This document shows, one piece after another, positions 3,063-42,857 of a DNA stretch of 47,774 nucleotides (the first letter of the stretch is position 1; each line of letters begins with the position of its first letter). The notes beneath the pieces were generated by a model. The model ran no database searches. It worked only from the letters and a program-made list of their open reading frames with translations, and was not told the DNA's origin. The position numbers were made by a program, and so were the translations under genes. Source of the DNA: Chloroflexota bacterium (GTDB lineage: Bacteria; Chloroflexota; UBA6077); the NCBI GenBank assembly GCA_021806765.1, contig JAJZQR010000005.1:1-47774 (forward strand). Reading direction: 5' to 3'.

Positions 3063-3116
3063 CTCAGCCCATCCCAATGCCCCTTTCACAGCGCGTTAAC
3101 CTCCGTCCCATACCAT
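3063..3116 (+). promoter_or_regulatory. 11-bp direct-repeat activator array and -10 box for the NarL-type regulator
   Basis: Four tandem 11-bp units: CTCAGCCCATC at 3063, CCAATGCCCCT at 3074, TTCACAGCGCG at 3085 and TTAACCTCCGT at 3096. The last starts 15 nt before a TACCAT -10 (3111-3116). No -35 hexamer is present. The arrangement matches the arrays listed at 9324, 11484, 16691, 17976, 20390 and elsewhere. It occupies the 349-base gap between the divergent genes at 2839 and 3189; nothing else is recognisable in that gap. Confidence 0.65.
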
Positions 3117-3188
3117 TGACCCCGGCGAGTGCAGCTAAGAGCGATCGACGGGGGCGTGAGCAGCGTTTCGCCGCGGGGGGAGTGAATC

Positions 3189-3851
3189 GTGGAGCGTAAG
3201 ATTCGCCTGCTTCTGGCAGATGATCACGGCGTGTTGAGGGCGGGATTGAGAACCCTCCTGAACGCGGAGCCGGACATGGAGGTGGTGGGCGAGGCCAGTG
3301 ATGGGAGGGAGGCGATCCAGAAGGCCGCCGAGCTACACCCTGATGTGGTTCTGATGGACATTAGCATGCCCATGATGAACGGTCTAGAGGCCACTCGCCA
3401 TATCAAACGAAGCGAAGCCGCGGCAAAGGTGCTGCTCCTTACCATGCACGACAACGAGGAATACCTCGTCCGAGCGCTGGAGGCGGGAGTATCAGGCTAC
3501 CTGCCGAAGAGCGCTGCGGACACCGATCTGGTCAGTGCCATTCGGGCGGTGGACCGAGGAGATGCTTTCCTGTATCCGACCGCCGCCAAGAAACTGATCC
3601 GTGAGTATCTGGACTTGGTGGGTGGAGGCGAGGAGGTTGAACAACTCGACCGCCTCACGGACAGGGAACAGGAGGTGCTGAAGCTGGTGGCGGAAGGATA
3701 CACCAACCAGGAGATGGCCTACATGCTGGTGGTCAGCGTCAAGACTGTGGAGACCCATCGCGCCCACATCACGGAGAAGCTGGGCTTCCGGAGCCGCGCC
3801 GAATTGGTGCGCTACGCTCTGAGCAAGGGGATGCTGGAGGCCGAGGTCTAG
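3189..3851 (+). CDS. NarL/FixJ-family response regulator
   Basis: 220 residues starting at GTG. Residues 5-120 are a receiver domain with acidic pocket DDH at 11-13, phospho-acceptor Asp57 in VVLMDISMP and Lys in YLPKS. Residues 150-215 are a LuxR-type helix-turn-helix (LTDREQEVLKLVAEGYTNQEMAYML, then VKTVETHRAHITEKLGFRSRAEL). No histidine kinase is adjacent, so it is an orphan in this window. Its promoter carries the 11-bp repeat array, which suggests another (OmpR-type) regulator controls it. A convergent terminator hairpin separates it from the DoxX gene. The family is certain; the signal is unknown. Confidence 0.93.
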   Translation: MERKIRLLLADDHGVLRAGLRTLLNAEPDMEVVGEASDGREAIQKAAELHPDVVLMDISMPMMNGLEATRHIKRSEAAAKVLLLTMHDNEEYLVRALEAGVSGYLPKSAADTDLVSAIRAVDRGDAFLYPTAAKKLIREYLDLVGGGEEVEQLDRLTDREQEVLKLVAEGYTNQEMAYMLVVSVKTVETHRAHITEKLGFRSRAELVRYALSKGMLEAEV

Positions 3852-3860
3852 GAGGGCAAG

Positions 3861-3889
3861 AGGGGAACCAGCGGCCAACTGGTCCCCCT
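3861..3889. terminator. Convergent hairpin terminator
   Basis: AGGGGAACCAG at 3861-3871 pairs with CTGGTCCCCCT at 3879-3889 with one bulged A and a 7-nt loop. It lies between the regulator stop at 3851 and the convergent DoxX gene end at 3910, so it could serve both strands. There is no long U tract. Confidence 0.5.
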
Positions 3890-3909
3890 GATCCCCTTCG
3901 ATCTGTTCG

Positions 3910-4829: not shown

Positions 4830-4841
4830 AGGTACTTTGCT

Positions 4842-5189: not shown

Positions 5190-5215
5190 GGCGACTAAAG
5201 AGAGGAGCGATCCAG

Positions 5216-6865
5216 ATGAGTGCAACCGAGCGGCTGCGCATAGACGTTCAGGGGATGACATGCCGTCACTGCGAGATCGCCGTGTCCAACGCCCTGCGAG
5301 AGGCGGGAGCGAAGGTCCTGAGAGTGGATTACCAAGCTGGTGAGGCGCTGGTCGAGGTTCCGGCGCGGACCGACTCAGAGTCTCTCGCCCAGGCGATAAG
5401 GGGGGCGGGATACCGGCCAGGAGTGGTGGAGGTGCTCCCTGAGCAGCCAGCAAGACAGGGACAAGCCTCGGACGCCGATTACGATCTGGCGATCATCGGC
5501 TCTGGCAGCGCCGCCTTCGCTGCCGCGATCAAGGCCCGTGAGGCGGGAGCCTCGGTCGTCATGATCGAGCGTGGAATCGTGGGAGGAACCTGCGTAAACA
5601 TCGGCTGCGTGCCCAGCAAGACCCAACTAAGAGCGGCTGACCTTTTCTACCAGGCGGGCCACCAGCCCTTCGGTGGTGCGTGGACGGCTGCCCAAGGGGT
5701 GGACCTCTCCCGGCTGGTGGATCAGAAGGACGAACTCGTTGCTCGGCTGCGGAAGGAGAAGTACGAGGAGCTGATCGGCGAGTACGGTTGGGGGTTGCTG
5801 CGCGGCGAGGCCGCCTTCCTGGACGAAGGGCATCTGGAGGTAGCTAGCAGGACCATAAGCGCCCGGAGCTTCCTCATTGCCACCGGCGCCTCCCCCGCCG
5901 TCCCACCCATCCCGGGCCTAGCGGAGGCGGGCTACCTCACCAGCACGACCGCCCTGGAACTGAGTGAGCTACCCAGGAGCATCGCCGTCATCGGCTCCGG
6001 CTACGTTGCCCTGGAGTTGGGCCAGCTCTTCCACCACCTGGGGAGCCGCGTCACCCTCATGCAGCGAAGTCCCCGCATCCTCAAGGAGTACGAGCCGGAG
6101 GTCTCTGACGCCGTTTACGAGGCGATGACCGGCCAGGGGATCAGCTTCGTCACCGGGGCTGCCTACCAGTGCGTCGAGCGCACGGGCGGGAGCTACCGCG
6201 TCACGCTGGAGGTGGGCGGCCAGCAGCGGGTGGTCGAGGCGGAGCAGCTCCTCGTGGCTGTGGGACGGCAGCCCAACACGGGGGCGCTGCATCTGGAGCG
6301 GGCGGGAGTCGAGGTTGGCGAGCGAGGCGAGGTGCTGGTGGACGAGCATCTGAGGGTCAGCAACCCGAGGGTTTTCGCCGCAGGCGACGTCACCCTCGGT
6401 CCCCAGTTCGTCTACGTGGCCGCCTACGAGGGGGCGCTCGCCGCCGAGAACGCCCTCGTGGGCTCGAGAGAGGTCGATCTGTCCACCGTGCCCGGGGTGA
6501 TCTTCACCACCCCCTCCGTGGCGACGGTGGGGCTGACCGAGGCTAAGGCCAGGGCCGCAAGTCTCGACGTCAAGACCTCGGTCCTACCGGCCAGCGCCGT
6601 TCCCCGCGCCCTCGCAAACAGGGCCACGGAGGGCGTGTTCAAGCTGGTGGCGGACGCCAAGACCGACCGGATACTGGGGGCACACGTGGTGGCCGAGAAC
6701 GCGGGGGAGGTGATCTACGCGGCGACCCTGGCGGTGAAGTTCCGCCTCACCGTGTCCGACCTCACCTCGACCTTCGCCCCGTACCTTACCATGGCCGAGG
6801 GGCTGAAGCTGGCCGCCCAGACCTTCGGGCGGGATGTGTCCAAGCTCTCCTGCTGCGCGGCCTAG
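5216..6865 (+). CDS. merA: Mercuric reductase with N-terminal HMA domain
   Basis: 549 residues. Residues 6-70 are a heavy-metal-associated domain with GMTCRHC (Cys16, Cys19). A class I flavin disulfide oxidoreductase follows: FAD site IIGSGSAA near 93-100, redox pair Cys126/Cys131 in GGTCVNIGCVPSK, NADPH Rossmann motif VIGSGYVALE, and the second FAD motif VFAAGDVT. The C-terminus ends SCCAA, so the vicinal Cys546-Cys547 pair that hands Hg(II) to the active site of the partner subunit is present. The enzyme reduces Hg(II) to volatile Hg(0) with NADPH in the cytoplasm. It is the second gene of the ArsR-controlled operon, 26 bases after arsR and 12 before merT. All diagnostic residues are intact. 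Confidence 0.97.
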   Translation: MSATERLRIDVQGMTCRHCEIAVSNALREAGAKVLRVDYQAGEALVEVPARTDSESLAQAIRGAGYRPGVVEVLPEQPARQGQASDADYDLAIIGSGSAAFAAAIKAREAGASVVMIERGIVGGTCVNIGCVPSKTQLRAADLFYQAGHQPFGGAWTAAQGVDLSRLVDQKDELVARLRKEKYEELIGEYGWGLLRGEAAFLDEGHLEVASRTISARSFLIATGASPAVPPIPGLAEAGYLTSTTALELSELPRSIAVIGSGYVALELGQLFHHLGSRVTLMQRSPRILKEYEPEVSDAVYEAMTGQGISFVTGAAYQCVERTGGSYRVTLEVGGQQRVVEAEQLLVAVGRQPNTGALHLERAGVEVGERGEVLVDEHLRVSNPRVFAAGDVTLGPQFVYVAAYEGALAAENALVGSREVDLSTVPGVIFTTPSVATVGLTEAKARAASLDVKTSVLPASAVPRALANRATEGVFKLVADAKTDRILGAHVVAENAGEVIYAATLAVKFRLTVSDLTSTFAPYLTMAEGLKLAAQTFGRDVSKLSCCAA

Positions 6866-9323: not shown

Positions 9324-9377
9324 CTCACAGCAATCTCACCGCGTCTTCACCAGGAGTTCACATTCTGCCGATACCCT
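9324..9377 (+). promoter_or_regulatory. 11-bp direct-repeat array and -10 box for the secreted Gly/Met-rich protein
   Basis: Four tandem units: CTCACAGCAAT at 9324, CTCACCGCGTC at 9335, TTCACCAGGAG at 9346 and TTCACATTCTG at 9357. The -10 TACCCT follows at 9372-9377, exactly 15 nt after the start of the last unit. These units are of the TCAC subtype, shared only with the paralogue's promoter at 16514-16567. The rest of the 317-base gap from 9131 to 9447 shows no other recognisable element. Confidence 0.75.
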
Positions 9378-9447: not shown

Positions 9448-9981
9448 ATGAAACGACTCGTGGTAGCTCTGGCAGCGGTGGGCGTGCTGGTGGTCGGTTC
9501 CGTGGGGGCAGCCTTCGCCCAAACCCCGACACCTCCGGCGAACGGATACGGGTGGGGGCACATGGGCTGGGGCTACGGGAACTACGACCCGGCCAGCAAC
9601 CCTACCATCAAGCGGTTGGCAGACAAGATCGGCATCGCCGCCGCCGACCTGGCGCAGCAGTTGAAGGACGGCAAGAGCATCGTGGACGTGGCCGCCGGCA
9701 AGGCATCAGAGCAGGACCTGGTGAACGTCCTGCTGCAGCCTCAGATCGACATGCTCGGCGTTCAGGTGAAGTACGGATACCTGACCCAGGACCAGGCCAA
9801 CAGCCTGCAGCAGTACATGACGAACCGGGCAAAGTACCAACTGGAGCAGAAGGGCTTCTTCGGCGGCTACGGGTACGGGCGCGGGATGATGGGCGGTTTC
9901 GGCGGGATGATGGGCGGCGGCTTTGGCTACGGCGGTATGATGGGTGGTTTCGGCCCCGGCTTCCAGGGCAACGCCAACTAA
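9448..9981 (+). CDS. Secreted helical protein with Gly/Met-rich tail (paralogue of 15923-16447)
   Basis: 177 residues from the ATG at 9448. A Sec signal peptide (KRLVVALAAVGVLVVGSVGAAFA) is cleaved before QTPTPP. A helical domain follows: DPASNPTIKRLADKIGIAAADLAQQLKDGKSIVDVAAGKASEQ, split here at NPTIKRLADKIG, AADLAQQLKDGKS and DLVNVLLQPQIDML. Then comes KYGYLTQDQANSLQQYM, a short EF-like or DUF2680-like repeat pattern. The C-terminal 40 residues are Gly/Met/Phe/Tyr repeats (GGYGYGRGMMGGFGGMMGGG). The paralogue at 15923-16447 has the same order of parts, and both share a distinctive promoter. A surface or cell-wall protein able to bind soft metals through Met is plausible; no known function is recognised. 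Confidence 0.85.
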   Translation: MKRLVVALAAVGVLVVGSVGAAFAQTPTPPANGYGWGHMGWGYGNYDPASNPTIKRLADKIGIAAADLAQQLKDGKSIVDVAAGKASEQDLVNVLLQPQIDMLGVQVKYGYLTQDQANSLQQYMTNRAKYQLEQKGFFGGYGYGRGMMGGFGGMMGGGFGYGGMMGGFGPGFQGNAN

Positions 9982-11403: not shown

Positions 11404-11515
11404 GTGCAGGGCTGCCGTTGGCACAGTGAAGTGGAAGACAGCTCCCCTGCCCAGTTCGCCTTCAGCAGTCCTCACAAGAAACTCTAAGCTGGCTTCCAGA
11501 CCCGGTTCAGGCTGC
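11404..11515 (-). pseudogene. Fragment of a histidine-kinase C-terminus
   Basis: On the minus strand EFLVRTAEGELGRGAVFHF followed by TVPTA matches the end of the HATPase domain (normally LVEAHGGxIxVxSxxGxGSTFxFTLP). The preceding bases still resemble a GTGLGLA glycine box but are frameshifted. No other kinase sequence remains, so this is a short relic. Base composition downstream to 11135 gives no further recognisable gene. Confidence 0.45.
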
Positions 11516-11537
11516 CTTAAGCTTCGTCCTCTATTCT
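11484..11537 (+). promoter_or_regulatory. 11-bp direct-repeat array and -10 box for the lipoprotein/HMA transporter operon
   Basis: Units CTAAGCTGGCT at 11484, TCCAGACCCGG at 11495, TTCAGGCTGCC at 11506 and TTAAGCTTCGT at 11517. The -10 TATTCT (11532-11537) starts 15 nt after the last unit. The transcript leader would be about 145 nt before the GTG at 11687. The array lies inside the 552-base gap that also holds the kinase relic. Confidence 0.75.
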
Positions 11538-11686: not shown

Positions 11687-12442
11687 GTGCGATCTTCTCA
11701 CTATGAAAAGCGACAGGCTTTGGTCCCGGCCCTGGCGCTGGTGGCAGCCCTGGCCCTGGTCGGATGCAGCTCGCTGGGAGCCGGAGAGACGCCTTCACCC
11801 TCCTCGAACGCACTGTCAACGGCATTCAAGGCGCCGACCTCCGCTGCTCTCGCGGCGACTTCGGTGGCACCATTGCCCAGCGCGACCGCCACTGCTGCCA
11901 AACCATCCGAGCCGGCGGCGGTGGCTCTGGAAACCAAGCCGTTCCCTCCAACTGCCGTTGCTCCGCAAGCCAGTGCGCAGTCGCCAACGGCCGCAGCCAC
12001 CAGGCCGCCCGCTCAGGCGGACGCCGCCACGCCGCAGACTCCGCCCAAGGGCACCGAGAGCGGTGCCGCCCTTGCCATCTCCGGCGGCCCGGTTCGCCGC
12101 AACGAGGGTGGTAGCGTGTCCATCGACGTCACCTGGCAGAACCCCGGACAGGCAGCCAGCCCTCTTACCTTCTCGGTAACCATGGACACCCATTCTGTGA
12201 ACCTGGACGGAGTCGACCTGGGCAAGCAGGCGGTGCTCAGGAACGACCGCGGCCAGGAGGTGAAGCCGCAGCAGTGGGAGGCACCCTCCGGGGGCCATCA
12301 TCGTTCGGGGTCCCTTTCGTTCTCAGCGGTGGACGGTTCAGGTGGCCTCATAGTGGAGCCTGGGGTGAAGGCCATCGAACTCGTGATCCGGGACGTGGCC
12401 GGAGTGAAGGAGAGAGTGCTGCGATGGGAACTGCCGGGATGA
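11687..12442 (+). CDS. Lipoprotein with Ala/Thr/Pro-rich linker and C-terminal domain of unknown function
   Basis: GTG at 11687 is preferred because AAAGGAGA lies just upstream and the product then begins with a lipoprotein signal (LVPALALVAALALVGCSS; lipobox Cys near residue 27). About 251 residues. A long low-complexity linker (residues 35-140) leads to a beta-rich domain: ISGGPVRRNEGGSVSIDVTW, then SPLTFSVTMDTHSVNLDGVD, then a His-containing loop (APSGGHHRSGSLSF). The THSVNLD and GGHHRSG segments suggest possible metal ligands. The stop codon overlaps the HMA/MerT-like gene, so the two are translationally linked. The inferred role is an extracytoplasmic partner or metal chaperone of that transporter. 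The fold is not one I can name. Confidence 0.82.
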   Translation: MRSSHYEKRQALVPALALVAALALVGCSSLGAGETPSPSSNALSTAFKAPTSAALAATSVAPLPSATATAAKPSEPAAVALETKPFPPTAVAPQASAQSPTAAATRPPAQADAATPQTPPKGTESGAALAISGGPVRRNEGGSVSIDVTWQNPGQAASPLTFSVTMDTHSVNLDGVDLGKQAVLRNDRGQEVKPQQWEAPSGGHHRSGSLSFSAVDGSGGLIVEPGVKAIELVIRDVAGVKERVLRWELPG

Positions 12443-13221
12443 CAAGCAAAGCATCGGAGACAGGCCGAGAGGAGAAGCCTTTCACGCCTGGGGGGTTGGT
12501 TGAGTTGGCGATGCCGGTTCGGGGCATGACCTGTTCCAACTGCTCCCACCACGTGCGCGGAGCCTTGGAGAGCGTGCCCGGCGTCATGGCTGCCCGGGTG
12601 GAGCTGGCCGCAGGTCTGGCGAAGGTCACCTTCGACCCGGCTCGGGCCACGGTTGCGATGCTTCAAGATACCGTCGAGGCGGCCGGGTACGTTCCGGGGG
12701 AACCTATCGGCATCACAGACACTCCTCTCGCGGAGGACGGGGCCCAAGACAGATCAACTGTGGTCGCGAAGGGTGGATTGACGCGGCCCGTCATCTTCGG
12801 GTTCCTGGCCTCGTCGCTGCTCGTGGCCTTCTACGCCGGCCTCGTTACGGCGGCTCAGGGCTTCGAACACGCCGCCGAACTACTCCTAGAGGATTGGTAC
12901 TTCGTGCTGCCTATCGTCGTGGGCTTCGGCGTTCAAGTGGGCCTCTTCGTTCACCTCCGGAGGAGTTCCCACCAACAGAGCACCCGATCTGCCAAGACTC
13001 TCACTGGTGTCGGCACAGGTACCTCCAGCGTCTCCATGGTGGCTTGCTGCGCTCACCACCTAACCGACATCCTTCCGCTGATCGGCATCTCTGGAGCGGC
13101 GCTCTTCTTGAACGATTACCGCCAGCCCCTGATGTTGCTGGGGATCGCGACCAACCTGGTGGGGATCATTCTGATGGTGCGGATGATCCGCCGGCTGCAC
13201 CGGATGCGGTGCGCAGCGTGA
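12424..13221 (+). CDS. HMA domain fused to MerT-like membrane domain with CCAHH motif; metal transporter candidate
   Basis: 265 residues if started at 12424; the ATG at 12439, in ATGA overlap with the lipoprotein stop, is an alternative. Residues 28-95 are an HMA domain with GMTCSNC (Cys37, Cys40). Four membrane helices follow (VIFGFLASSLLVAFYAGLVT; YFVLPIVVGFGVQVGLFVHL; the CCAHH helix; LMLLGIATNLVGIILMVRMI). The helix SMVACCAHHLTDILPLIGIS carries Cys208-Cys209-x-His211-His212. Its pattern CC...LP..G.SGA....YR parallels the MerT first helix. The product looks like a single-chain chaperone-plus-channel for a soft metal (Cu or Hg). It is co-transcribed with the lipoprotein from the 11484 promoter. 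Metal specificity cannot be read from sequence. Confidence 0.8.
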   Translation: MGTAGMTSKASETGREEKPFTPGGLVELAMPVRGMTCSNCSHHVRGALESVPGVMAARVELAAGLAKVTFDPARATVAMLQDTVEAAGYVPGEPIGITDTPLAEDGAQDRSTVVAKGGLTRPVIFGFLASSLLVAFYAGLVTAAQGFEHAAELLLEDWYFVLPIVVGFGVQVGLFVHLRRSSHQQSTRSAKTLTGVGTGTSSVSMVACCAHHLTDILPLIGISGAALFLNDYRQPLMLLGIATNLVGIILMVRMIRRLHRMRCAA

Positions 13222-15922: not shown

Positions 15923-16447
15923 CTAGTTGCTGGAGCGAGGCGTGGTGGGCCCAAAGCCGTGGCCCATCATCCCGCCGAAGCCGTAGCCGCCCATCATGTG
16001 ACCGTAGCCGAAGCCGCCGAAGAAGCCCTTCTGCTCGAGTTGGTACTTGATGCGGTCGGCCGCGAGCTTCTGGATGCTATTGGCCTGGTCCTGGGTGAGG
16101 TAGCTGTACTTGATCTTGATCGCCAGCGTGTCCGTCTGGGGAGCCAGCAACAGATCCACCAGCGCCTGCTCGTCCACATTCTTCCCCTTGGCCACCTCGA
16201 CCACGCTCTTGCCAGACTGCAACTCCTTCACCAGGTCCGACGCGCCGATGCCGATCTTGTCTGCCAGGCGCTTGATGGTCGGATTGCTCGTCGGGTCGTA
16301 GTTCCCGTATGTCCCAGCGCCGCTCCGGCCCATGGGCCCCCATCCGGGCTGGCTCCTGGGGGGAGTGGGAGTTTGTGCAGAGGCCGCCCCAACCGGACCG
16401 ACAGCCAGTACCGCCACCGCTGCCAGGGAGAGCATCATCCGCTTCAC
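15923..16447 (-). CDS. Secreted helical protein with Gly/Met-rich tail (paralogue of 9448-9981)
   Basis: The start is GTG at 16447 with GGAGG 7 bases upstream, giving 174 residues; this aligns with the MKR start of its paralogue. A signal peptide (MLSLAAVAVLAVGPVGAASA) precedes QTPTPP. The central domain is close to that of the 9448 protein: NYDPTSNPTIKRLADKIG, then DLVKELQSGKSVVEVAKG, then KYSYLTQDQANSIQKL and KYQLEQKGFFGGFGYG. The tail is shorter and ends GFGPTTPRSSN. Both paralogues are driven by TCAC-subtype arrays, which implies co-expression. Function is unknown; a structural or metal-binding surface role is inferred from the Met/Gly tail and the neighbourhood. Confidence 0.85.
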   Translation of the reverse strand: MKRMMLSLAAVAVLAVGPVGAASAQTPTPPRSQPGWGPMGRSGAGTYGNYDPTSNPTIKRLADKIGIGASDLVKELQSGKSVVEVAKGKNVDEQALVDLLLAPQTDTLAIKIKYSYLTQDQANSIQKLAADRIKYQLEQKGFFGGFGYGHMMGGYGFGGMMGHGFGPTTPRSSN

Positions 16448-16513: not shown

Positions 16514-16567
16514 ATGGTGGCGCCGGGTTGTGAATAGCCTGTGAAGAGCTCGTGAGGAAGCTGTGTG
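16514..16567 (-). promoter_or_regulatory. 11-bp direct-repeat array and -10 box for the 16447 secreted protein
   Basis: Read on the minus strand: CACACAGCTTC (from 16567), CTCACGAGCTC (from 16556), TTCACAGGCTA (from 16545) and TTCACAACCCG (from 16534). The -10 is CACCAT at 16519-16514, 15 nt after the start of the last unit. The first unit is weak. The array is the TCAC subtype shared with 9324-9377. Confidence 0.7.
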
Positions 16568-16690: not shown

Positions 16691-16744
16691 CTAAGCCCTG
16701 TCTCAGGGTGCATTCAGCGCTTGTTAAGCCTGGTTAAATATACT
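16691..16744 (+). promoter_or_regulatory. 11-bp direct-repeat array and -10 box for the Rieske gene
   Basis: Units CTAAGCCCTGT at 16691, CTCAGGGTGCA at 16702, TTCAGCGCTTG at 16713 and TTAAGCCTGGT at 16724. TATACT (16739-16744) begins exactly 15 nt after the last unit and is a near-perfect -10. This is the clearest member of the set. It lies in the 388-base gap from 16448 to 16835 together with the minus-strand array at 16514-16567. Confidence 0.85.
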
Positions 16745-16835: not shown

Positions 16836-17357
16836 ATGCAACTAGGAGCCAGTAAAGACAAGGTTGGGCGAAGGTCTTTCCTGGGTTACATCATTGCCGC
16901 CATTGGTGCCTTTGTGACGACGGTGCTTGGCAGCTCGACGGCGATCTTCGCGGCCTCGCCGCTGCTGACTGGGAGGCGCGACGTGCAGGTACCCCTGGGC
17001 GCGGCGACCGGGTTCCAGGTGGGCGTGCCCAAGTTGGTACAGTTCTCGCTGCCCCGCAAGGACGGGTGGATAGTCGAGGACGCCGCCAAGTCGGTCTGGG
17101 TGGTCCGAACCGGGGAGGACAAGTTCATCACCTACAGCCCCCGGTGCACCCACCTGGGATGCATCGTCTCCTGGGTACCCGAGCAGCAGGCGTTCAAGAG
17201 CCCCTGCCACGGGGGCGTCTTCTCGATGGAGGGGCAGGTGATAGCGGGCCCACCCCCACGGCCGCTGGACAGATTGGATAACCGAATAGAGGGTGGCAAG
17301 TTGGTCGTCGACTACAAGGAGTTCCGACTGGGGATCCCGAAGAAAGTCGAGGCCTGA
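16836..17357 (+). CDS. Rieske 2Fe-2S protein (QcrA-like)
   Basis: 173 residues. A twin-arginine-like N-terminus (GRRSFLGYIIAAIGAFVTTV) provides a membrane anchor. The Rieske domain carries both cluster-binding boxes: CTHLGC near residues 108-113 and CHGGVFS near 127-133, followed by the GPPPRPLDRL proline loop. Proteins of this shape are the iron-sulfur subunit of cytochrome bc or b6f complexes in Gram-positives and Chloroflexi. No cytochrome b or c subunit is adjacent, so it is either a stand-alone electron carrier or separated from its complex. It has its own strong array promoter at 16691-16744. Confidence 0.93.
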   Translation: MQLGASKDKVGRRSFLGYIIAAIGAFVTTVLGSSTAIFAASPLLTGRRDVQVPLGAATGFQVGVPKLVQFSLPRKDGWIVEDAAKSVWVVRTGEDKFITYSPRCTHLGCIVSWVPEQQAFKSPCHGGVFSMEGQVIAGPPPRPLDRLDNRIEGGKLVVDYKEFRLGIPKKVEA

Positions 17358-17975: not shown

Positions 17976-18029
17976 CTCACGATCCCCTCAGCCTGGATTC
18001 AGGGAAAACTCAGGAACCGACCAGACAAT
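17976..18029 (+). promoter_or_regulatory. 11-bp direct-repeat array and -10 box for the OmpR-type regulator
   Basis: Units CTCACGATCCC at 17976, CTCAGCCTGGA at 17987, TTCAGGGAAAA at 17998 and CTCAGGAACCG at 18009. The -10 GACAAT (18024-18029) starts 15 nt after the last unit. Because the downstream gene is itself an OmpR/PhoB-type regulator, autoregulation is the simplest reading. Confidence 0.8.
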
Positions 18030-18159: not shown

Positions 18160-18858
18160 ATGAAGAGGCGAATCCTGGTCATTGACGATGATCCGAGCGT
18201 TACCAGCCTGCTGAAGCGAGGCCTTTGTTACGAGGGCTACAGGGTGGCCACGGCGGCCTCGGGCAGGGAGGGGCTCAATCAGGCCAGGGACCTGCCACCC
18301 GACCTGGTGATACTGGACGTCATGATGCCGGGGATCAACGGCTTCGAGGTGTGTCGTCTGTTGCGGGCAGCAGACGCCACCCTCCCCATCCTCATGCTGA
18401 CGGCCAGGGACGGAACGGGCGACCAGATCCTCGGACTGGAGACCGGTGCCGACGACTACGTGGTGAAGCCGTTCACCTTTGAGGTGCTGCTGGCGAGGAT
18501 CAGAGCTCTCCTGAGGCGGACCGAACTACCCGAACCCGAGGTCGTCCGCTTTGCGGATCTTGCCCTGGATACAGGCACCCACACGGCCCGAAGAGACCAG
18601 AGGGAGATAGATCTCACGACCACCGAGTACGAGCTGTTATCGGAGTTCCTTCGCCATCCGCGGCAGGTGCTGACGAAGGAGCAGTTGGTGGACAAGGTCT
18701 GGGGCTACGACTTCGAGGGTAACTTCAACATCCTGGAAGTGTACGTCCGCTACCTGCGGAGCAAGCTGGAGGCTGGGGGCGAGCCTCGCCTGATCCACAC
18801 CGTTCGAGGCGCCGGATATCTGCTCCGGGAGCCACGGGAACAAGAAGGAGTGGACTGA
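18160..18858 (+). CDS. OmpR/PhoB-family response regulator; candidate master of the 11-bp repeat regulon
   Basis: 232 residues from the ATG at 18160 (AGGGGG 8 bases upstream). The receiver has DDD at 10-12, phospho-acceptor Asp53 in VILDVMMPG and the VKPF lysine. The C-terminal winged helix (about 130-225) has LTTTEYELLSEFLRHPRQVL, recognition helix [15 protein letters not shown] and the [10 protein letters not shown] wing. OmpR/PhoB proteins bind tandem 11-bp direct repeats, and four such repeats sit in this gene's own promoter. The partner kinase gene follows 3 bases later but is truncated. A second pair at 44985-42843 encodes a very similar regulator. Which of the two reads the repeats is not decided by sequence alone. 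Confidence 0.92.
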   Translation: MKRRILVIDDDPSVTSLLKRGLCYEGYRVATAASGREGLNQARDLPPDLVILDVMMPGINGFEVCRLLRAADATLPILMLTARDGTGDQILGLETGADDYVVKPFTFEVLLARIRALLRRTELPEPEVVRFADLALDTGTHTARRDQREIDLTTTEYELLSEFLRHPRQVLTKEQLVDKVWGYDFEGNFNILEVYVRYLRSKLEAGGEPRLIHTVRGAGYLLREPREQEGVD

Positions 18859-18861: not shown

Positions 18862-19395
18862 ATGTCCGGCTCGCTTCGGCTGCGGCTAGCCGTGTGGTAC
18901 GCGGTGCTACTGGGCTTCATTCTCGCCGTTGCATCCCTTTTCTCGTACAGCTTCCATAGCACCTTCCACTATGAAGACGTGGACCGATCACTCGCTGCCA
19001 CTGCGGGTCACGTGTTGGGTGAGCTGCGAGCCAGGGGCGACCCGCCCGGAACCGAGCAGGGTATCGAGCTTCCCCCGGTGGATGAGTACGGATCGCCGGA
19101 CGTGTACGTGCGCCTGTTCGACGCCGAGGGACGCATCCTCGCCTTCTCGGGCAACGCCGGCCGGCAGGCCGAAGTCGATCCACGCTCGGTGGAAACGCAG
19201 CGTCAGGTCAGGGGAATGGATAGCCCGTTAGGCTGGTTGCCGGCTTCCTGTATCTCGCCTTGGCCCCAGCCGCAGGCTACGTGCGCGTTACTACCGGCTG
19301 TTGCCTGGAGGGCAGCTCTGCGTCGCCAACGGTTAGCCCCGGGTTCGGCGGCGCTAGCCTGGAGGGCTGTTCACCCTTGCCGATGGCTGGCGTAG
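18862..19395 (+). pseudogene. Truncated sensor histidine kinase
   Basis: It starts 3 bases after the regulator stop. Residues 1-115 look like a normal sensor N-terminus: membrane helix LRLAVWYAVLLGFILAVASL, then an extracytoplasmic part (FHYEDVDRSLAATAGHVLGE, YGSPDVYVRLFDAEGRILAF). After about residue 122 (near 19230) the sequence becomes non-homologous. The second membrane helix, HAMP, His-box and HATPase domains are all missing, and a minus-strand gene (19277-19627) occupies the place. The deletion leaves the 18160 regulator without its cognate kinase. The 18862-19230 part is the authentic remnant. Confidence 0.8.
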
Positions 19396-19679: not shown

Positions 19680-19733
19680 AGTGTGACATACGGCCCTTAA
19701 CTGCTGCTGAGAAGGGGCTTAGCGTTTCATTGG
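19680..19733 (-). promoter_or_regulatory. 11-bp direct-repeat array and -10 box for the DUF2933-like gene
   Basis: Minus-strand units: CCAATGAAACG (from 19733, weak), CTAAGCCCCTT (from 19722), CTCAGCAGCAG (from 19711) and TTAAGGGCCGT (from 19700). CACACT (19685-19680) is the -10, 15 nt after the start of the last unit. Confidence 0.7.
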
Positions 19734-20312: not shown

Positions 20313-20366
20313 AGGTTAGTTGTTTCACCTTAAACTCCTCTGAGGACCATCTGAAAAGGCGATGAG
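20313..20366 (-). promoter_or_regulatory. 11-bp direct-repeat array and -10 box facing the membrane-protein relic
   Basis: Minus-strand units: CTCATCGCCTT (from 20366), TTCAGATGGTC (from 20355), CTCAGAGGAGT (from 20344) and TTAAGGTGAAA (from 20333). TAACCT (20318-20313) lies 15 nt after the start of the last unit. It is back-to-back with the lgt array 23 bp away. Confidence 0.8.
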
Positions 20367-20389: not shown

Positions 20390-20443
20390 CTCAGGGAGCT
20401 TTCAGGAGCGTCTCAGGGGCGACTAAGGCTGATCTGCCATCAT
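20390..20443 (+). promoter_or_regulatory. 11-bp direct-repeat array and -10 box for lgt
   Basis: Units CTCAGGGAGCT at 20390, TTCAGGAGCGT at 20401, CTCAGGGGCGA at 20412 and CTAAGGCTGAT at 20423. The -10 candidate CATCAT (20438-20443) is 15 nt after the last unit. The repeats are regular, but the -10 is weaker than in the other members. Confidence 0.75.
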
Positions 20444-21476: not shown

Positions 21477-21555
21477 AGCGGATGGCAGACCGCGACACTT
21501 CGGACAACCGCCTCGTTGCCATCCCGGCGAGCACCAACAAGAAGCTACGCCTTTT

Positions 21556-21598
21556 CTCAGTCGGCTCTAAGTCGCCCTTAATCCGGGTGAGGTAACAT
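21556..21598 (+). promoter_or_regulatory. 11-bp direct-repeat array and -10 box for the LysM-NlpC gene
   Basis: Units CTCAGTCGGCT at 21556, CTAAGTCGCCC at 21567 and TTAATCCGGGT at 21578, with a weak extra unit CTACGCCTTTT at 21545. The -10 TAACAT (21593-21598) starts 15 nt after the last unit. Confidence 0.8.
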
Positions 21599-23492: not shown

Positions 23493-23546
23493 CTAAACCT
23501 AGCTTAAGTTCCTCCTAAGCTGCCTTTAATAGGTCGGGCGTATGGT
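23493..23546 (+). promoter_or_regulatory. 11-bp direct-repeat array and -10 box for the VanW-family gene
   Basis: Units CTAAACCTAGC at 23493, TTAAGTTCCTC at 23504, CTAAGCTGCCT at 23515 and TTAATAGGTCG at 23526. The -10 TATGGT (23541-23546) lies 15 nt after the last unit. Confidence 0.82.
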
Positions 23547-25467: not shown

Positions 25468-25661
25468 CCCGATGCGGCCGCGTCCACTGGAGCAGCATCG
25501 CCGGGTGCTCAGTTCCAATAGAGTGCCAGTCCTACCCTCTTCAAACGAAGGGGCCAGCTTCTCAACATACTCTCAGCCGCAACTCATGGATTGTTAACCT
25601 CGAGCCGGTAGTATTGGATCGAACCCACTCAAGAAGAGAAGACGCTAAGGTTCCTCCCTGC

Positions 25662-25829: not shown

Positions 25830-25867
25830 TCACGGCCTAGCCGTGGTGCGCTCTGTTTCGCGGACTG

Positions 25868-27757
25868 CTACTTGATCAGGGTCGCGTTGGGCACGTCCTG
25901 CCCTGTCAGATCCTTGTAGGAGAGTTGCAGCAGGGCCACGGAACGCTTGAAGTTGTGGATGGCGTTGGCCTTGCCGTCGTCGCCCTCCAGACCTCGGACG
26001 AAGCGATAGTTGTAGATAGCGTTCTTCTGCTTCTCGTTGGCCTTGGCCAGGTCGGCCGCATCGAAGTAGGGGTTGCCCTTGATCGGCTTGACCCCCGAGT
26101 CGGCGATAGCCTGCTGAAGGGTTCTCACCAGACCGGCTACCTCCTCCTGCACCCCCTCGATCTTGCCGTTGCCGTCGTAGTCGGCCTTGGCCTCGAAGTC
26201 GAACTTCGTGGCTCCGGCATGGCAGGTCTGACAGGCGCTGGTGTTCTCGACCTTGCCGTCGGGGCTGGTCATGCCGAAGTTGTGCTCCCCGACCTCCCAC
26301 CGATTGGGATCATTGTCGCTCAATCCGTTCGGTGCCATGTGACAGGTTACGCAGGGCCCTGGAACCGCCCCACCGTAAAGCATCTTCTTGCCCTCTGTGT
26401 CCGTCGGGTCCTTCACCGGAGCTACCCCAACGATCAGGCTGTGGGGCGAATTGGCGACTTCCTGGCCGTAGGTCACGCCGCCCGAGTTGCTCAGCATCTC
26501 AGCCGCGGGGCTATAGTGCGGGTAAGAGCCCTTCTGAGCGTCCGCCGGGACGGTGCGGCCGTTGTGGCAGCTGGCACAGGTCGCGGAGAGACCGAAGTCC
26601 TTGGTCACGCCCGCTGCCTCCAGGGACTTGCCCACCACGCGAAGCTGGAACTTGTTGCCATCGGAGTGCGGGTCGTGGCAGGTGGAGCAGCCAGGCGTCT
26701 GAGCTGTGTTATCCCACGAGGCCATCTCCGTGGGGTTGGCCACAAAGGAGACGAAGCCCGCGCCCGAGTGACAGCGGACACACGCCTGGCGGCTCGGACC
26801 TGTGGGATAGGTCCATGCCTGGGCAGTCGCGTCCCCGTGCTTGGAGTTGGCGACCGCTGTGCCCTTCAGGGACTTGCCGGCGTTGTGACACTGGTTGCAG
26901 ACGCCGTTGTCGGCGCTCACCGCCGGCTTGATGCTGCTGTTGGCCACGTGGTCCTTGGCGGGGCCGTGGCAGCTCTCGCACTGGATCTTGGAGACGTTCT
27001 GCAGCGCCTCAGGCATGGCGCCCCAGTTGTCGTTGCCCGCCTGGACGTCGGCCGGGGCAGGGAACTTCCAGTCGAGGGCGGCCTGAACGTCAGCGAAGCC
27101 GCCGTTCTTCACACCGGGGTCGTAGCCGGTGGTGTGGCACCGCAGGCACGCTTCGCCGTAGTGGCTGGTGGCCGGGTCGGTGCCGCCGTTGATCTCCCTG
27201 GTCACTTTGGTGGCGTGGCCGGTCTCAGACCACCCCTGGGTCTTCTCGGAGTGGCACTGGAAGCAATTGCCGACACCGGTGCCGATGTACTCACCAGCGT
27301 GGATCTGAACGGAGGCCACGGGGCTCGACCCGGCGTCGTTGCTGAGCACCAGGTCGACCTTGTAGACGCCGGAGACGTCTGGAGTGAACTTGACCGTGGG
27401 CTCGTTGTTGGACGTGAGGACACTCTTGGAGCCGCCGGGCTTGGTCAGGGTCCAGGCGTACTTGGATACCGAAGCCTTGGGATCCGAGGCCGAACCCTGC
27501 AACGTGACTGGAACCCCGATGGAGACGTTGTTCAACCCGGTCGTCCCCATCTGGACCTTGGTCTTTCCGTCGGCCAGGGTCGCTTCGATGACGTTGGGGT
27601 CGGTGGCGCTGGCGGCCACTGGCACGATCTTGATGGCGGCGGCGAGCTTCCCTGCCTGGGGCTGCGCCTCTGCGGCCATCAGCGTCCCCGCCGAAACCGC
27701 CAGGGCCAGCACAACCAGGCCAGCCAGGGCCACCAGGCCCTTTGGCTTCACTGCCAT
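25868..27757 (-). CDS. Exported nine-haem c-type cytochrome with N-terminal PKD-like domain
   Basis: 629 residues from the ATG at 27757, which has AAGGAGG 8 bases upstream. A signal peptide (LVALAGLVVLALAVSAGTLMA) leads to an Ig/PKD-like domain (about 60-150; YAWTLTKPGGSKSVLTSNNE, then KFTPDVSGVYKVDLVLSN). Nine CxxCH haem motifs follow in order: CFQCH, CLRCH, CESCH, CNQCH, CVRCH, CSTCH, CASCH, CVTCH and CQTCH. The C-terminal part is helical (AIYNYRFVRGLEGDDGKANA). Its layout recalls octahaem and extracellular electron-transfer cytochromes such as those acting on nitrogen or sulfur compounds, but no catalytic Lys-haem motif (CxxCK) is seen. It is probably an extracytoplasmic electron carrier. 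It has no cytochrome neighbours. Confidence 0.92.
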   Translation of the reverse strand: MAVKPKGLVALAGLVVLALAVSAGTLMAAEAQPQAGKLAAAIKIVPVAASATDPNVIEATLADGKTKVQMGTTGLNNVSIGVPVTLQGSASDPKASVSKYAWTLTKPGGSKSVLTSNNEPTVKFTPDVSGVYKVDLVLSNDAGSSPVASVQIHAGEYIGTGVGNCFQCHSEKTQGWSETGHATKVTREINGGTDPATSHYGEACLRCHTTGYDPGVKNGGFADVQAALDWKFPAPADVQAGNDNWGAMPEALQNVSKIQCESCHGPAKDHVANSSIKPAVSADNGVCNQCHNAGKSLKGTAVANSKHGDATAQAWTYPTGPSRQACVRCHSGAGFVSFVANPTEMASWDNTAQTPGCSTCHDPHSDGNKFQLRVVGKSLEAAGVTKDFGLSATCASCHNGRTVPADAQKGSYPHYSPAAEMLSNSGGVTYGQEVANSPHSLIVGVAPVKDPTDTEGKKMLYGGAVPGPCVTCHMAPNGLSDNDPNRWEVGEHNFGMTSPDGKVENTSACQTCHAGATKFDFEAKADYDGNGKIEGVQEEVAGLVRTLQQAIADSGVKPIKGNPYFDAADLAKANEKQKNAIYNYRFVRGLEGDDGKANAIHNFKRSVALLQLSYKDLTGQDVPNATLIK

Positions 27758-27900
27758 GAACGGAACCTCCTTCCTAGTTTCCTCGGTCGGGCCACTTTGC
27801 CCTCTCAGATGAGCTGCCGATGAGCCTTGAACCATCACCTCCCTTCAAAGCCATCGTGGAGGATGGACGTACTTCTCCTACTAACAAGAGGTTGGGACCA

Positions 27901-29423: not shown

Positions 29424-31811
29424 ATGAAACGTGAGATCGTCGAAGTCGACTGGCTGTTGATGCCGGAGGATGCCCGGGCGGTGGAGAAGCGGCTGCGCAA
29501 ACACCCCGGCATTCGGCAGGCCGAAGTAAGCCCGGTGAGCGGGCTGGCGGTGGTGGAGTACGACGAGCAGCGGGTCACCATCGAGGAGATCCAGCGAGTG
29601 GTGGCGGAATGCGGCTTCCACTGCCGGGGGGCCGTTGGACCCCGCCACCTGTTCCGCGAGATCGAGGGCCCACAGCGCGAGCACCGATCTGATCCCCCTC
29701 ACCCGATAGCAGGAGGATCGGCGCTGCCCGAGGAGGAAGGGCACGCTGCCCACGTCCATCCCAGGGGAGAGGGTGCTGCCGAGGCCGGTCCCTCACCGGA
29801 GCCGCCTCCCGGTCACGGGGGTCACGAGCAACACGGGGGGATGAGCGGGGACCTCGAGGCCATGGCCCGGGACATGCTGCGCCGGACCCTGGTCTCCATA
29901 CCGCTGACCATCCTGATCTTCCTCTACGCCCCCCTGTTCCAGCAGTTCACAGGCTTCGCCCTTCCGACCCCCTTCGGCGTGTCGCCCAACGTGGTCATGT
30001 TCATCCTGGCCACGCCGGTGGTGCTGTGGGGCGGATGGATGTTCTACGTGGACGCCTTCTACGCCCTGCGGAACCAGGTCCTGAACCTGTCGGTGCTTGT
30101 CAGCCTCTCGGTGCTGTCGGCCTACTTCTTCAGCGTGGCCGCCACCTTCTTCTTCCAGGCCGAGACCTTCTACGAGGCCGCCACGGTGCTGATGGTGTTC
30201 ATCCTGGGAGGACACTGGCTGGACCTGCGGGCGCGCAGCGGCGCATCCAACGCCATCCGAGCCCTGCTGGAGCTGGCCCCGCCGATGGCCAGGGTCGTTC
30301 GGGACGGCCAGACGGTGGAGGTCTCGACAGCCGAGGTGCAGGTGGGGGACCTGGTGCTGATCCGGCCCGGCGACAAGGTCCCAGTGGACGGAGAGGTGAC
30401 CGAGGGGGAGTCCGCAGTGAACGAGGCGATGGTCACGGGCGAGAGCCTGCCGGTGGAGAAGCGTCCGGGGAACGAGGTGATCGGCGGGACCATCAACCAA
30501 ACCGGCTCCTTCCAGTTTCGGGCCACCAAGGTGGGGGCGGACACCGCCCTGGCCCAGATCGTCCAGCTGGTTGCCGCCGCCCAGGCTTCCAGGCCTCCTG
30601 CCCAGGTGCTGGCCGACCGGGCCTCCCAGTGGCTAACCATCGCGGCCATAGTCATTGCTCCCCTGACCTTCGCCGCCTGGTACCTGGTGGGCGAGCCAGC
30701 GATCTTCGGCTTCACCCTGATGATCACCGTCCTGGTGATCGCCTGCCCCGATGCCCTGGGCCTCGCTACCCCCATGGCGGTGCAGGTGGCCACATCCATG
30801 GCCGCCCAGCGCGGCATCCTCTTCAAGAGCGCCACCGCCCTGGAGGACGCCTCGCGGCTGAAGGCAGTGATCATGGATAAGACGGGCACACTCACCAAGG
30901 GAGAGCCCGAGGTGGTGGAGATGGTGGCAGCCGAGGGGGTGAGCGAGCAGGAGTTGCTGGCGATGGCGGCGGCCGTGGAGCGGGGCTCGGAGCACCCGAT
31001 CGCGAAGGCGATCCTGAAGCGGGCAGAGGGGCTGGCGGTGCTTGAGGTGGGCGGCTTCGAGGCGATACCCGGCCATGGGGCCCGGGCAGAGGTGAATGGA
31101 CGACTGGTCCTGGTGGGGAACCCCCGGCTGATGGAGACCCGGCGGGTGGCCATGGACGGGATGCAGCAGCAGGCGGAGAGGCTGGCCTCCGAGGGGAGAA
31201 CCGTCGTCTACGTGGCCTGGGACGGCAGGATGGCAGGGCTGGTTGCAGTGGCCGATGCGCCGCGACCAACTTCCAGGGATGCTGTCCGGCGTCTCAGGGA
31301 GAGGGGCGTCGAGGTTGTCATGCTCACCGGCGACAACTGGGCGACGGCGAAGCGCATCGCCTGGGAACTCGGCATCGAGAAGATCTTTGCCGAGGTGCTG
31401 CCTACCCAGAAGGTCGACAAGGTGAAGGAGGTGCAGCGGGAGGGGAAGCTGGTGGCGATGGTAGGGGACGGGGTCAACGACGCGCCGGCCCTGGCCCAGG
31501 CCAACGTGGGGATCGCCATAGGGGCCGGCACAGACGTGGCGCTGGAGGCGGCGGACGTGGTGCTGATGCGCAGCGACCCCCTGGACGTGGCCAGGACCAT
31601 CGCCATTAGCGGCGCCACCCGGCGCAAGATGGTCCAGAACCTGTGGTACGCGGCAGGTTACAACATCATCGCCTTCCCCATCGCGGGCGGGGCCTTCTAC
31701 CCGCTCATCGGGCTGCTGCTGCGTCCGGAGATCGCCGCCTTCACCATGGCCGGCAGCTCCGTCCTGGTGACGATCAACGCGCTGCTGCTCCAGCGGACGC
31801 CGGTGGACTGA
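29424..31811 (+). CDS. P1B-type heavy-metal ATPase with CPD transmembrane motif and His-rich linker
   Basis: 795 residues. Residues 1-65 are an HMA-like fold lacking CxxC ([20 protein letters not shown]). A linker at 85-145 is rich in His ([23 protein letters not shown]). Membrane helices, the TGESLPVEK actuator motif, the phosphorylation site Asp485 in [10 protein letters not shown], the SEHPIAKAI nucleotide-binding motif and [12 protein letters not shown] are all present. The metal-site helix reads [13 protein letters not shown] (Cys441-Pro-Asp443) instead of CPC, CPH, SPC or TPC. The His-rich N-terminus resembles CopB-type pumps, so Cu export is a fair guess, but the CPD motif leaves specificity open. 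There is no adjacent regulator. Confidence 0.93.
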
Positions 31812-40325: not shown

Positions 40326-40342
40326 GTCCCCTCCTTTCTTCC

Positions 40343-42460
40343 CTAACGGTTACCAGATGATCGGTTGCCGGGTGCCTGCCCGCCTAGTTCGGCGAGGAGA
40401 CCCTGGATGCGCCCGTCGTACATGCGAAGCTGCATCCGCTCCAGGAGCTGGCGCTCCATGTTCGCCGTGAGCTCGGCGTGCTTGCGGGCCTTGAGGTCCT
40501 GGGCTACCACCTCCTTCGCCTCCTCGAAGGGGCGCTGGCGGCTCTCCTGCCTCTCGCGGACCTGGAAGAGGTAGTAGCTATCGCCGAGGGGCAGGATGGG
40601 CGAGATCTCTCCCACCTTGAGCCCGAGGAGCTCCTCGTGCAGTGGATGCTCGAAGAGCTCGGCCATCGGGTCTCCGCTCTCCCCCAGCCACCGATCCAGC
40701 TCTCCGCCCTTGGCCGCCGTGTCCGGGTCCTCCGAGTACCCTTTGGCGACCTCGGCGAAATCGGCCGGTTGCCCACCCGAGCCGAAGAGACCGCCAGGCT
40801 TGAGCTTGGCCTCGGCTTCCTGGATCTTGGCCCGGGCCTTCTCGTCCGTGTCCCCGGAGGCCCCGCGCCCAACCCGGATGTAGCGCACCTTGACGCGGGC
40901 AGGATCGGCGTAGCGCGCCTTGTCGCGGTCGTACTCGGCCCGCACCTCCGCGTCGGAGGCCGTCAGCTTGGCGTCCACCTCCTCCTCGTGGAGGAACTGG
41001 GCCATCAGCTCCGTGCGAGCGTGATCGATCTCTTTGCTGCGCTTCACGTCCACCGCCTGCTCCGAGGCATCCTCCACGACCAGGAGCCGCTCGATAAGGT
41101 TGTCCAGGATCCTTCGCTTGCCCTCCGCGCCCGAGTATTGTCCCCGAACCTCCGCGGGCAGCTCGTTCAGCTCGCCGAGAAACTCCCCCAGGGTGGTCCG
41201 GCGCGAGTGAATGGTGAAGAGGGTGCGGTCCTTCCGATCGGAGTACACCTGCTGCTCGCGCTCCGTCCGCAGCGTGCCGGCGATCTCGCCACGGACTTCC
41301 TCGTACGGCCGAAGCCTCTCCGGCCAGCGCTCGATCAGCTTCTCGACGTAGTAGCTGTCGCCCTCCTTGAATGCCGGCGAAAGCTCCCCCGGCTGAAGCT
41401 GGAACACGGCCGCGTCGAACTCGGGGCTCCGGCCGCCGCGCGCCACCGGGTCCGCCAGCTCGCCACCCTGGGCCTTGCGCGGCCCGTCGCCGAACTCCCC
41501 GGCGAGCAGGGCGAAGTCCTCGCCGGCTGCGGCCCGCGCCCGCGCCGACTCGGCCCTGGCCCTGGCCTTCTCGTCGCCGCCGGCCAGGGCCACGCTCACC
41601 TGGATCTCGGCGACCCTCGCCTGTTCGGGCACGCGGAACCTCTCTCGGTTGTTCTGGTAGTAGGCCACCAGCTCCTGCTCTGCCGGCTCGGGCACCTCGA
41701 GCAGGCCGTAGTCGACCTGCAGGCTCGCCCGCTCCTTGAGATCCTTCAGGTAGCCCTCGACGAAGGGCTGCTCCTTCTCCTCGACGACGGCCTGGCGGAC
41801 CTGTTCCCTCACCTCCACCAGGGGCCGGTCTCCGAACTGCCTGCGGTTCTGGTCGTAGTAGGCCTGGATCTCGGCCTCGCCGACCTGTACGCGGCCCTCG
41901 TGCAACTGGTCGGAGACGTCGGCGATCTTGATCTCCTCGGTGGCATGCTTCATCGCCTCGGTGAAAGCCTGCTTCTGGTCGACCTGTCTCTCCGAGGCCC
42001 ACCGGCGGGTCACGGCATCGACCACCGCGTGGCCCACCAGCGCTCGGATGCCGCCGACGCTGCGATAGTGAGGCTGCTCCTCCTTCGGGATGGCGACGAA
42101 CTCCTGCCGGATCTGCTCCCCTGTCACCACCCCTCCCCGGTAGGTGGCTACCACGGTTGGGTCGGCCGGCTCCCGGGCATCCCAGGGCGCCCAACGCGCG
42201 AGAAACAGCCCAACGACCAGGACTAGCGCGGCGCCTCCCGCCCAGAGCCTTCGGCCTCGCGGCGCCGAGGGAGCCCTCGTCGGTTCGGCCTCGGCATTGG
42301 CACCTGCCGCCCGCCCGTCGCCTGGCTGATCCGCCGGGATCTCAGTCGGCTCCGCTGAACCCGCCGGCGCTTCCGCCGGCGGGGCCACCGTGGAAGGGAT
42401 GGTACCCCCCAGGGCATCGCGGAGGTCGTGAAGCACCTGTCTCACGGTGCTAATGAGCAT
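40343..42460 (-). CDS. SurA/PrsA-like membrane-anchored peptidyl-prolyl isomerase with two parvulin-type domains
   Basis: 705 residues from the ATG at 42460 (AAGGA 8 bases upstream; the ATG 9 bases earlier lacks spacing). A disordered Pro/Ala N-terminus precedes a membrane helix near 80-95 (LWAGGAALVLVVGLFLARWA). The first PpiC domain (about 285-390) has ARVAEIQVSVALAG, AAGEDFALLAGEFGDGPRKA and QLQPGELSPAFKEGDSYYVE. The second (about 545-660) has ARVKVRYIRVGRGASGDTDE, FAEVAKGYSEDPDTAAKGGE and LKVGEISPILPLGDSYYLFQ. Each is preceded by SurA-like helical chaperone segments. It should fold exported proteins. It is 17 bases upstream of the CDF-HflK fusion, so envelope protein folding and proteolysis control are encoded together. 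Confidence 0.9.
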   Translation of the reverse strand: MLISTVRQVLHDLRDALGGTIPSTVAPPAEAPAGSAEPTEIPADQPGDGRAAGANAEAEPTRAPSAPRGRRLWAGGAALVLVVGLFLARWAPWDAREPADPTVVATYRGGVVTGEQIRQEFVAIPKEEQPHYRSVGGIRALVGHAVVDAVTRRWASERQVDQKQAFTEAMKHATEEIKIADVSDQLHEGRVQVGEAEIQAYYDQNRRQFGDRPLVEVREQVRQAVVEEKEQPFVEGYLKDLKERASLQVDYGLLEVPEPAEQELVAYYQNNRERFRVPEQARVAEIQVSVALAGGDEKARARAESARARAAAGEDFALLAGEFGDGPRKAQGGELADPVARGGRSPEFDAAVFQLQPGELSPAFKEGDSYYVEKLIERWPERLRPYEEVRGEIAGTLRTEREQQVYSDRKDRTLFTIHSRRTTLGEFLGELNELPAEVRGQYSGAEGKRRILDNLIERLLVVEDASEQAVDVKRSKEIDHARTELMAQFLHEEEVDAKLTASDAEVRAEYDRDKARYADPARVKVRYIRVGRGASGDTDEKARAKIQEAEAKLKPGGLFGSGGQPADFAEVAKGYSEDPDTAAKGGELDRWLGESGDPMAELFEHPLHEELLGLKVGEISPILPLGDSYYLFQVRERQESRQRPFEEAKEVVAQDLKARKHAELTANMERQLLERMQLRMYDGRIQGLLAELGGQAPGNRSSGNR

Positions 42461-42520
42461 AAGCGTCATCCTTCGAACTGGCGATGAGGACGGACAGTGC
42501 GATCATCGTGAGCGCGACTC

Positions 42521-42772
42521 TCAGCCGCATGGATCACCTCGCTCGACTACTGCCGTGGGCGTCGACCAGGATCCGCTCGAGGATCTTTCAGACCACGAGG
42601 ATCGATAGCGCTCGCAGCCGAGCCGGTAGCGCTTGCCGCTGGACAGCGAGAACTCGGCCGCGAGACGGCTGTGTTCGAGGAACCGGCGAAGTCGATCCAG
42701 CGTGCCGGCATCCCGGCAGTTGCCGCGACATCGACAGCTTCCGCAGACCGCCTGAACCCTGGTCCGTGGCAT
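42521..42772 (-). CDS. Small Cys-rich protein
   Basis: 83 residues from the ATG at 42772 with GGGGAGG 5 bases upstream and an array promoter 30-85 bases before the start. The N-terminus MPRTRVQAVCGSCRCRGNCR has four cysteines in CxxCxCxxxC spacing, then RDAGTLDRLRRFLEHSRLAA and a basic, Ser-rich tail. The first 45 residues look protein-like; the last 30 may be less constrained. A small metal- or redox-binding protein is possible. No family is recognised. Confidence 0.5.
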   Translation of the reverse strand: MPRTRVQAVCGSCRCRGNCRDAGTLDRLRRFLEHSRLAAEFSLSSGKRYRLGCERYRSSWSERSSSGSWSTPTAVVERGDPCG

Positions 42773-42803
42773 AGCACCCTCCCCGTGTAGCGAATTCGGT
42801 CTG

Positions 42804-42857
42804 AGTGTGCCGCACCAAGTTTAGAGCCGGTTTAGAGGAAGATTAGGCGGGGGTAAG
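42804..42857 (-). promoter_or_regulatory. 11-bp direct-repeat array and -10 box for the small Cys-rich gene
   Basis: Minus-strand units: CTTACCCCCGC (from 42857), CTAATCTTCCT (from 42846), CTAAACCGGCT (from 42835) and CTAAACTTGGT (from 42824). The -10 CACACT (42809-42804) begins 15 nt after the last unit. The array overlaps the last codons of the histidine kinase gene. Confidence 0.7.

Follow-up and report, generated by a model that had tools for sequence, protein, structure and literature searches.

Twelve promoters in a 47,774-nucleotide stretch of a Chloroflexota genome (assembly GCA_021806765.1, contig JAJZQR010000005.1, positions 1 to 47,774; the whole stretch is called the window) are preceded by tandem arrays of an 11-bp unit that end at a fixed distance from the -10 box. 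As judged from sequence, the arrays are probably operators of an OmpR/PhoB-family response regulator that would activate promoters without a -35 box; the reader is most likely RR1, a response regulator encoded in the window, with its paralogue RR2 as co-reader or alternative. The metal and envelope genes of the window most likely constitute a single co-regulated set, of a class already known, because relatives keep the promoter pattern beside the same kind of regulator.

The 12 sites listed in an earlier reading of the window (the original prediction) were extracted and gave an ungapped alignment of 54 nt. Each repeat unit consists of [CT]T[CA]A[GC] followed by six free bases, for a period of 11 bp. 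The invariant bases were the first base of unit 1 (C), the second base of units 3 and 4 (T) and the fourth base of units 2 to 4 (A); information per unit, from one to four, was 6.4, 6.8, 6.8 and 8.2 bits, and the fourth unit favoured TTAAG. Across the whole window the expression YTMAS-N6-YTMAS-N6-YTMAS (period 11) gave 12 overlapping matches that make up eight arrays, seven on the earlier list and one (11287+) outside it, and exact three-unit rows at every other period from 5 to 24 gave 0 matches. The same expression occurred in 100 first-order Markov sequences with a mean of 0.01 (maximum 1). A position matrix was built from the 12 window sites only and used at a main threshold of 20 bits; it returned 14 window sites at period 11, with none at periods 9, 10, 12 and 13, and the highest score reached in 50 second-order Markov sequences was 18.3. 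When each of the 12 sites was left out of the matrix in turn, its score ranged from 17.7 (42857-) to 39.8.

All 12 predicted arrays were thus present and directed toward the next gene, which is co-oriented at every site, with 39-340 bp from -10 to gene. Markov sequences and other periods yielded essentially no arrays. The prediction of three or four contiguous units everywhere held for the 7/12 sites with at least three consecutive exact units and overstated the uniformity of the rest, where the longest run was two (4/12) or no exact unit was found (42857-). Eleven of the 12 arrays are fully intergenic, upstream of genes rather than inside them, in a window that is 78.5% coding by a gene list whose start codons were partly chosen by the analyst; the remaining array (42857-) overlaps the end of the histidine kinase gene HK2 by 28%. 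Matrix-site density was 29 per 100 kb, compared with 6.6 per 100 kb on the regulator contig of G101, the closest relative, so that the density described as striking is indeed unusual against the sampled relatives.

The register of the -10 hexamer is fixed at 15 nt downstream of the start of the last unit, with A (position 2) and T (position 6) invariant at 12/12 sites. The boxes are weak, agreeing with TATAAT at 3 to 5 of 6 positions. When the -10 was searched for freely at the eight exact-unit arrays of the window, offset 15 had the highest mean (3.25 of 6) and was the single best in 4/8; the claim that the last unit always starts 15 nt before the -10 therefore stands for the register and is weaker in the free search. 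Among arrays of relatives picked by their units alone (n = 45), the -10 signal peaked at offset 15 (mean 3.80 matches vs. 2.44 at the next offset), which was the single best in 25/45. The best TTGACA match at the 12 sites averaged 2.4 of 6 vs. 2.6 in random window pieces, consistent with replacement of the -35 by the array.

The genome-wide question was addressed on stretches of relative genomes fetched via homology to RR1. In the first set (80 loci from named genomes, the best 80 of 591 RR1 matches), the window-only matrix at 20 bits or more gave 62 matches at period 11 and 0, 1, 0 and 0 at periods 9, 10, 12 and 13; the 62 include neighbouring registers unmerged, and merged sites number 60 (38 + 18 + 4) at 20 bits. 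For the second set, 301 genomes were drawn from the phylum of G001, 105 had a regulator at E <= 1e-80, and 30 loci were examined: 13 hold a site of at least 20 bits, and lowering the threshold to 18 bits gave 16 period-11 sites and none at the four other periods. Twenty longer stretches gave 31 sites at period 11 and 0 at other periods (20 bits); the counts of 31 and 16 are not independent, because several of these stretches re-cover phylum loci. Away from regulators, no period-11 site was found in 360 kb of three genomes or in 322 kb of G101 (682 kb, four genomes), the G101 sample holding one site at period 10. With sites adjacent to regulators and none in the 682 kb elsewhere, the arrays form local clusters in the samples examined, and a matrix built from the window finds the period-11 grammar again beside homologous regulators, with other periods near zero.

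Array presence followed the helix of the neighbouring regulator. Arrays were found at 23/26 loci with an EVY..SLR helix, 10/28 with another [EDQ]V[YF] helix and 3/26 of the rest; those within 300 bp upstream of the regulator start numbered 17 (15 co-oriented), 2 (1 co-oriented) and 0, respectively, and the two of the 17 that point away from the regulator are at L035 and L044. The OmpR-family reader proposed in the original prediction thus agrees with sequence from relatives fetched solely via RR1, as does the PhoB/PhoP-like period of 11 bp, which was confirmed in both window and relatives. At the Eremiobacterota loci L063 (-10 at 11909 and 14510) and L079 (-10 at 12143), TTAAG-type arrays with the same spacing accompany a regulator whose helix differs (VHIRWLR).

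RR1 and RR2 both scored above the cut-offs for the receiver and Trans_reg_C winged-helix families. More specific models were missed: TIGR01387 (heavy-metal response regulator, CopR/CzcR/SilR; cut-off 279.2, RR1 215.8, RR2 230.1 bits), TIGR02154 (PhoB; cut-off 296.2, RR1 219.5, RR2 223.2 bits), NF040689 (MtrA; cut-off 300, RR1 226.6, RR2 216 bits) and, for HK2, TIGR01386 (heavy-metal sensor kinase; cut-off 292.55, 255.7 bits). Among the matches listed, the closest named relatives of RR1 come from Chloroflexota metagenome-assembled genomes (MAGs), a MAG labelled Gemmatimonas, and Thermaerobacter. Its nearest PDB relative is PhoP of Mycobacterium tuberculosis; in the printed alignment 4/6 base-contacting residues are kept, and Ile replaces Val213 and Val replaces Ser216 (residues as reported in PMC4832192). 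HK2 may serve both RR1 and RR2, and is perhaps the sensor because the kinase frame adjoining RR1 is without its catalytic part. Longer copies of that RR1-adjacent kinase exist, since in G101 the frame adjoining the RR1 orthologue (L165) aligns with HK2 residues 2-465. A sequencing error is a possible cause of the truncation at 18862-19395.

From this arrangement we infer binding and activation as follows. Each 11-bp unit would hold one DNA-binding domain, and three or four phosphorylated monomers, arranged head to tail, would occupy successive helical turns, with the last two over the position of the missing -35 box. The last monomer would contact RNA polymerase at the weak -10, 15 nt downstream (class II activation). 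RR1, whose own gene has an array in front, would most likely be the reader, with RR2 either joining or replacing it. The probable signal is copper, a different metal or stress on the envelope, and HK2 may be its sensor.

Two characteristics of PhoB/PhoP/CiaR-type operators, 11-bp repeats in head-to-tail order and constant spacing between the last of them and the -10, were found here. CiaR (CiaRH) of Streptococcus reads NTTAAG-N5-TTTAAG with an 11-bp period, its csRNA finder places the -10 10 nt past the last TTTAAG, i.e., 15 nt from the start of TTAAG, and with this layout CiaR activates (PMC3091779). The window arrays have the 11-bp period, the TTAAG core and the 15-nt spacing in common with it, and the CiaR recognition helix VVEVYVSKVRKKL resembles that of RR1 in a by-eye comparison with the published string only (PMC3091779). 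They differ in having three or four repeats rather than two, in their frequent CTCAG/CTCAC units and in their targets. The anthracis relative BAS0540 shifts CiaR-type sites in vitro (PMC4938410). M. tuberculosis PhoP binds TCACAGC-N4 direct repeats, and DNA with three or four motifs is bound more tightly than DNA with two (PMC4832192); the 11-bp period is the same, but the full TCACAGC occurs in few window units and TCAC in a minority, most being CTCAG, CTAAG or TTAAG. MprA of Corynebacterium glutamicum reads TKTTAAGAAM, with TTCAG at htrA, has envelope targets and is proposed to be positively autoregulated (PMC12113857); the TTAAG word, TTCAG at htrA and the envelope targets are similar, whereas the motif is described there as loose and single, without unit rows or fixed spacing. 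A likeness to YrkP of Bacillus subtilis, whose regulon includes ykcBC (PMC5836110, PMC10128005), lies in target genes, several Firmicutes arrays preceding YkcB-like genes. CutR of Streptomyces was ruled out as a precedent, its site being TAWATAAA (PMC12802291).

Since period and spacing equal those of CiaR, PhoP prefers three or four motifs, and MprA reads TTAAG/TTCAG at envelope genes, the arrays and regulators would represent PhoB/PhoP/CiaR-like activation, a known class of system in the OmpR family. The rows of three or four units, their density and the common grammar from Chloroflexota to Firmicutes are unusual. A search of the literature on TTCAG repeats with response regulators returned no description of these arrays, subscription papers being mostly uncovered and novelty therefore unproven. 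The comparison suggests that CiaR TTTAAG, MprA TTAAG/TTCAG and PhoP TCACAGC, described apart, are one recognition class. Tentatively, regulators with an [E/D]VY recognition helix may have preserved one operator language (at least three [CT]T[CA]A[GC] units with an 11-bp period, the row ending 15 nt before the -10) in both Chloroflexota and Firmicutes, as well as in MAGs labelled Gemmatimonadota; in the Chloroflexota lineage it might run a local copper/envelope-stress regulon, one member of which would be a small RNA driven by an array, a parallel to the CiaR regulon. If this is true, regulons of uncultured bacteria become readable from sequence alone. With the pattern, membership of promoters in one metal/envelope regulon, and the expected position of their starts, can be predicted in an uncultured lineage; it also points to candidate regulators.

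The theme of the targets is copper or other metals and the envelope, and the same target types recur behind arrays in relatives, in line with the original prediction. Families were scanned for 40 target proteins (four from the window), 11 of which were without a family. Genes that lie behind arrays in relatives encode the regulator itself, P-type metal ATPases (five scanned, of which four have HMA domains), four cupredoxin-like proteins, HMA, DUF2933, FtrD-like, PDZ and DUF5676 proteins, HtrA proteases (two scanned), and YkcB-like glycosyltransferase, HlyD, ApbE and PepSY_TM proteins; matches to DUF2680 were weak and below the cut-off. Arrays are kept by the G101 orthologues of a window secreted protein and of the DUF2933 protein, and by relatives of the lipoprotein and HMA genes at three loci. 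CopA relatives have arrays at L004, L009 and L176, as does an ATPase of the same kind at L173; the CopA gene of the window has none. Firmicutes arrays precede HtrA genes at L016 and L044 (by Pfam) and at L023 and L026 (by resemblance alone), and YkcB-like genes at L045 (Pfam) and other loci.

Several observations weigh against operators read by RR1. Array-free genes of the window include, besides CopA, MerA, the ZntA-type ATPase and HK2-RR2. No 20-bit site was present at 17/30 phylum loci, and a profile search of 12 relative genomes (up to 150 candidates scored per genome) matched only 2 at E <= 0.1; at 2/12, the sequence-only profile model of the 12 sites was too insensitive and was rejected as a detector. 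Three of the 26 EVY..SLR loci are without an array, while three loci with other helices carry one. The Fisher value of 3e-5 is too favourable, since the helix classes were defined after the table had been seen and the loci are related to each other. Autoregulation is challenged by G101, whose RR1 orthologue has no array of at least 15 bits in front.

The alternative that survives best, though we consider it the lesser possibility, is a code split between the paralogues, one reading CTCAC/TTCAC arrays (9324, 16567- and partly 3063) and the other CTAAG/CTCAG/TTAAG arrays. The one base-contacting position at which the two proteins differ corresponds to Asn212, which is Asn in RR1 and PhoP and Lys in RR2, and the TTCAC type is common to both secreted-protein promoters and the G101 orthologue; the recognition helices are otherwise near-identical, however, and the subtypes are mixed inside single arrays (e.g., 17976). 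Real operators read by a third OmpR-family regulator elsewhere in the genome would explain both the array-free loci among RR1 relatives and the arrays at loci with other helices. This is unlikely, given that arrays cluster beside RR1 relatives, with none in the 682 kb elsewhere, and that at 17/26 EVY..SLR loci an array lies no more than 300 bp from the start of the regulator. Still less probable are repressor sites, at which bound monomers would block the promoter: the arrays do overlap the core promoter region, but strict spacing to a weak -10 without a -35 is what an activator requires, and CiaR is an activator at promoters laid out in this way (PMC3091779). An origin by chance, base composition or an unrelated repeat, suggested by short and degenerate units and by the 5/12 sites without three exact units in a row, is contradicted by the period, Markov and other-region controls and was rejected with near certainty. 

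Table 1. Arrays, regulators and array-free cluster genes of the window (scores from the 12-site matrix)
Feature	Position	Strand	Gene behind or content	Score (bits)	Remark
Array to -10	3063..3116	+	LuxR-type response regulator 3189-3851	34.1	
Array, CTCAC/TTCAC type	9324..9377	+	Secreted protein 9448-9981	33.2	L165 orthologue also with array
Array	11484..11537	+	Lipoprotein-like 11687-12442 and HMA protein 12274-13221	36.1	L009, L170, L173 relatives with arrays
Array, CTCAC/TTCAC type	16514..16567	-	Secreted protein 15923-16447	29.2	
Array	16691..16744	+	Rieske protein 16836-17357	40.9	
Array	17976..18029	+	RR1 18160-18858	32.5	Possible autoregulation
Array	19680..19733	-	DUF2933 protein 19277-19627	34.0	L166 orthologue with array
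Array	20313..20366	-	19769-20278, no Pfam family	37.8	
Array	20390..20443	+	Lgt 20477-21343	35.8	
Array	21545..21598	+	LysM-NlpC/P60 21831-23405	34.4	
Array	23493..23546	+	VanW protein 23632-25467	32.9	
Thirteenth array	25561..25614	+	No co-oriented gene behind	28.1	New relative to earlier list
Weakest array	42804..42857	-	Rotamase 40343-42469, 340 bp away	28.5	Leave-one-out 17.7; no exact unit; small ORF 42521-42772 between
Further matrix site	32925	+	Not in front of a co-oriented gene	22.4	
RR1, OmpR/PhoB-family response regulator	18160..18858	+	PF00072 + PF00486		Favoured reader
Sensor-kinase N-terminus	18862..19395	+	177 aa, no recognisable kinase domain		Adjoins RR1
HK2, histidine kinase	42843..44297	-	HAMP, HisKA, HATPase_c		
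RR2, OmpR/PhoB-family response regulator	44299..44985	-	PF00072 + PF00486		Possible second reader; 64% identical to RR1
Mercuric reductase	5216-6865				No array
Multihaem cytochrome	25868-27838		656 aa		No array
CopA-type ATPase	29424-31811				No array
ZntA-type ATPase	45722-47764				No array

The CTCAC/TTCAC-type arrays precede two similar secreted proteins (9324, 16567-) and their G101 orthologue (L165, near 14011), and are perhaps a sub-code. Neither Rfam (gathering threshold) nor the tRNA scan gave a match in the window. In the stretch 25561-25842 (+), the 25561+ array is followed, between convergent genes, by strong hairpins, with a fold z of -7.25 and 0/200 shuffles as stable; this region may be an array-driven small RNA, as the csRNAs are for CiaR, or may simply hold terminators.

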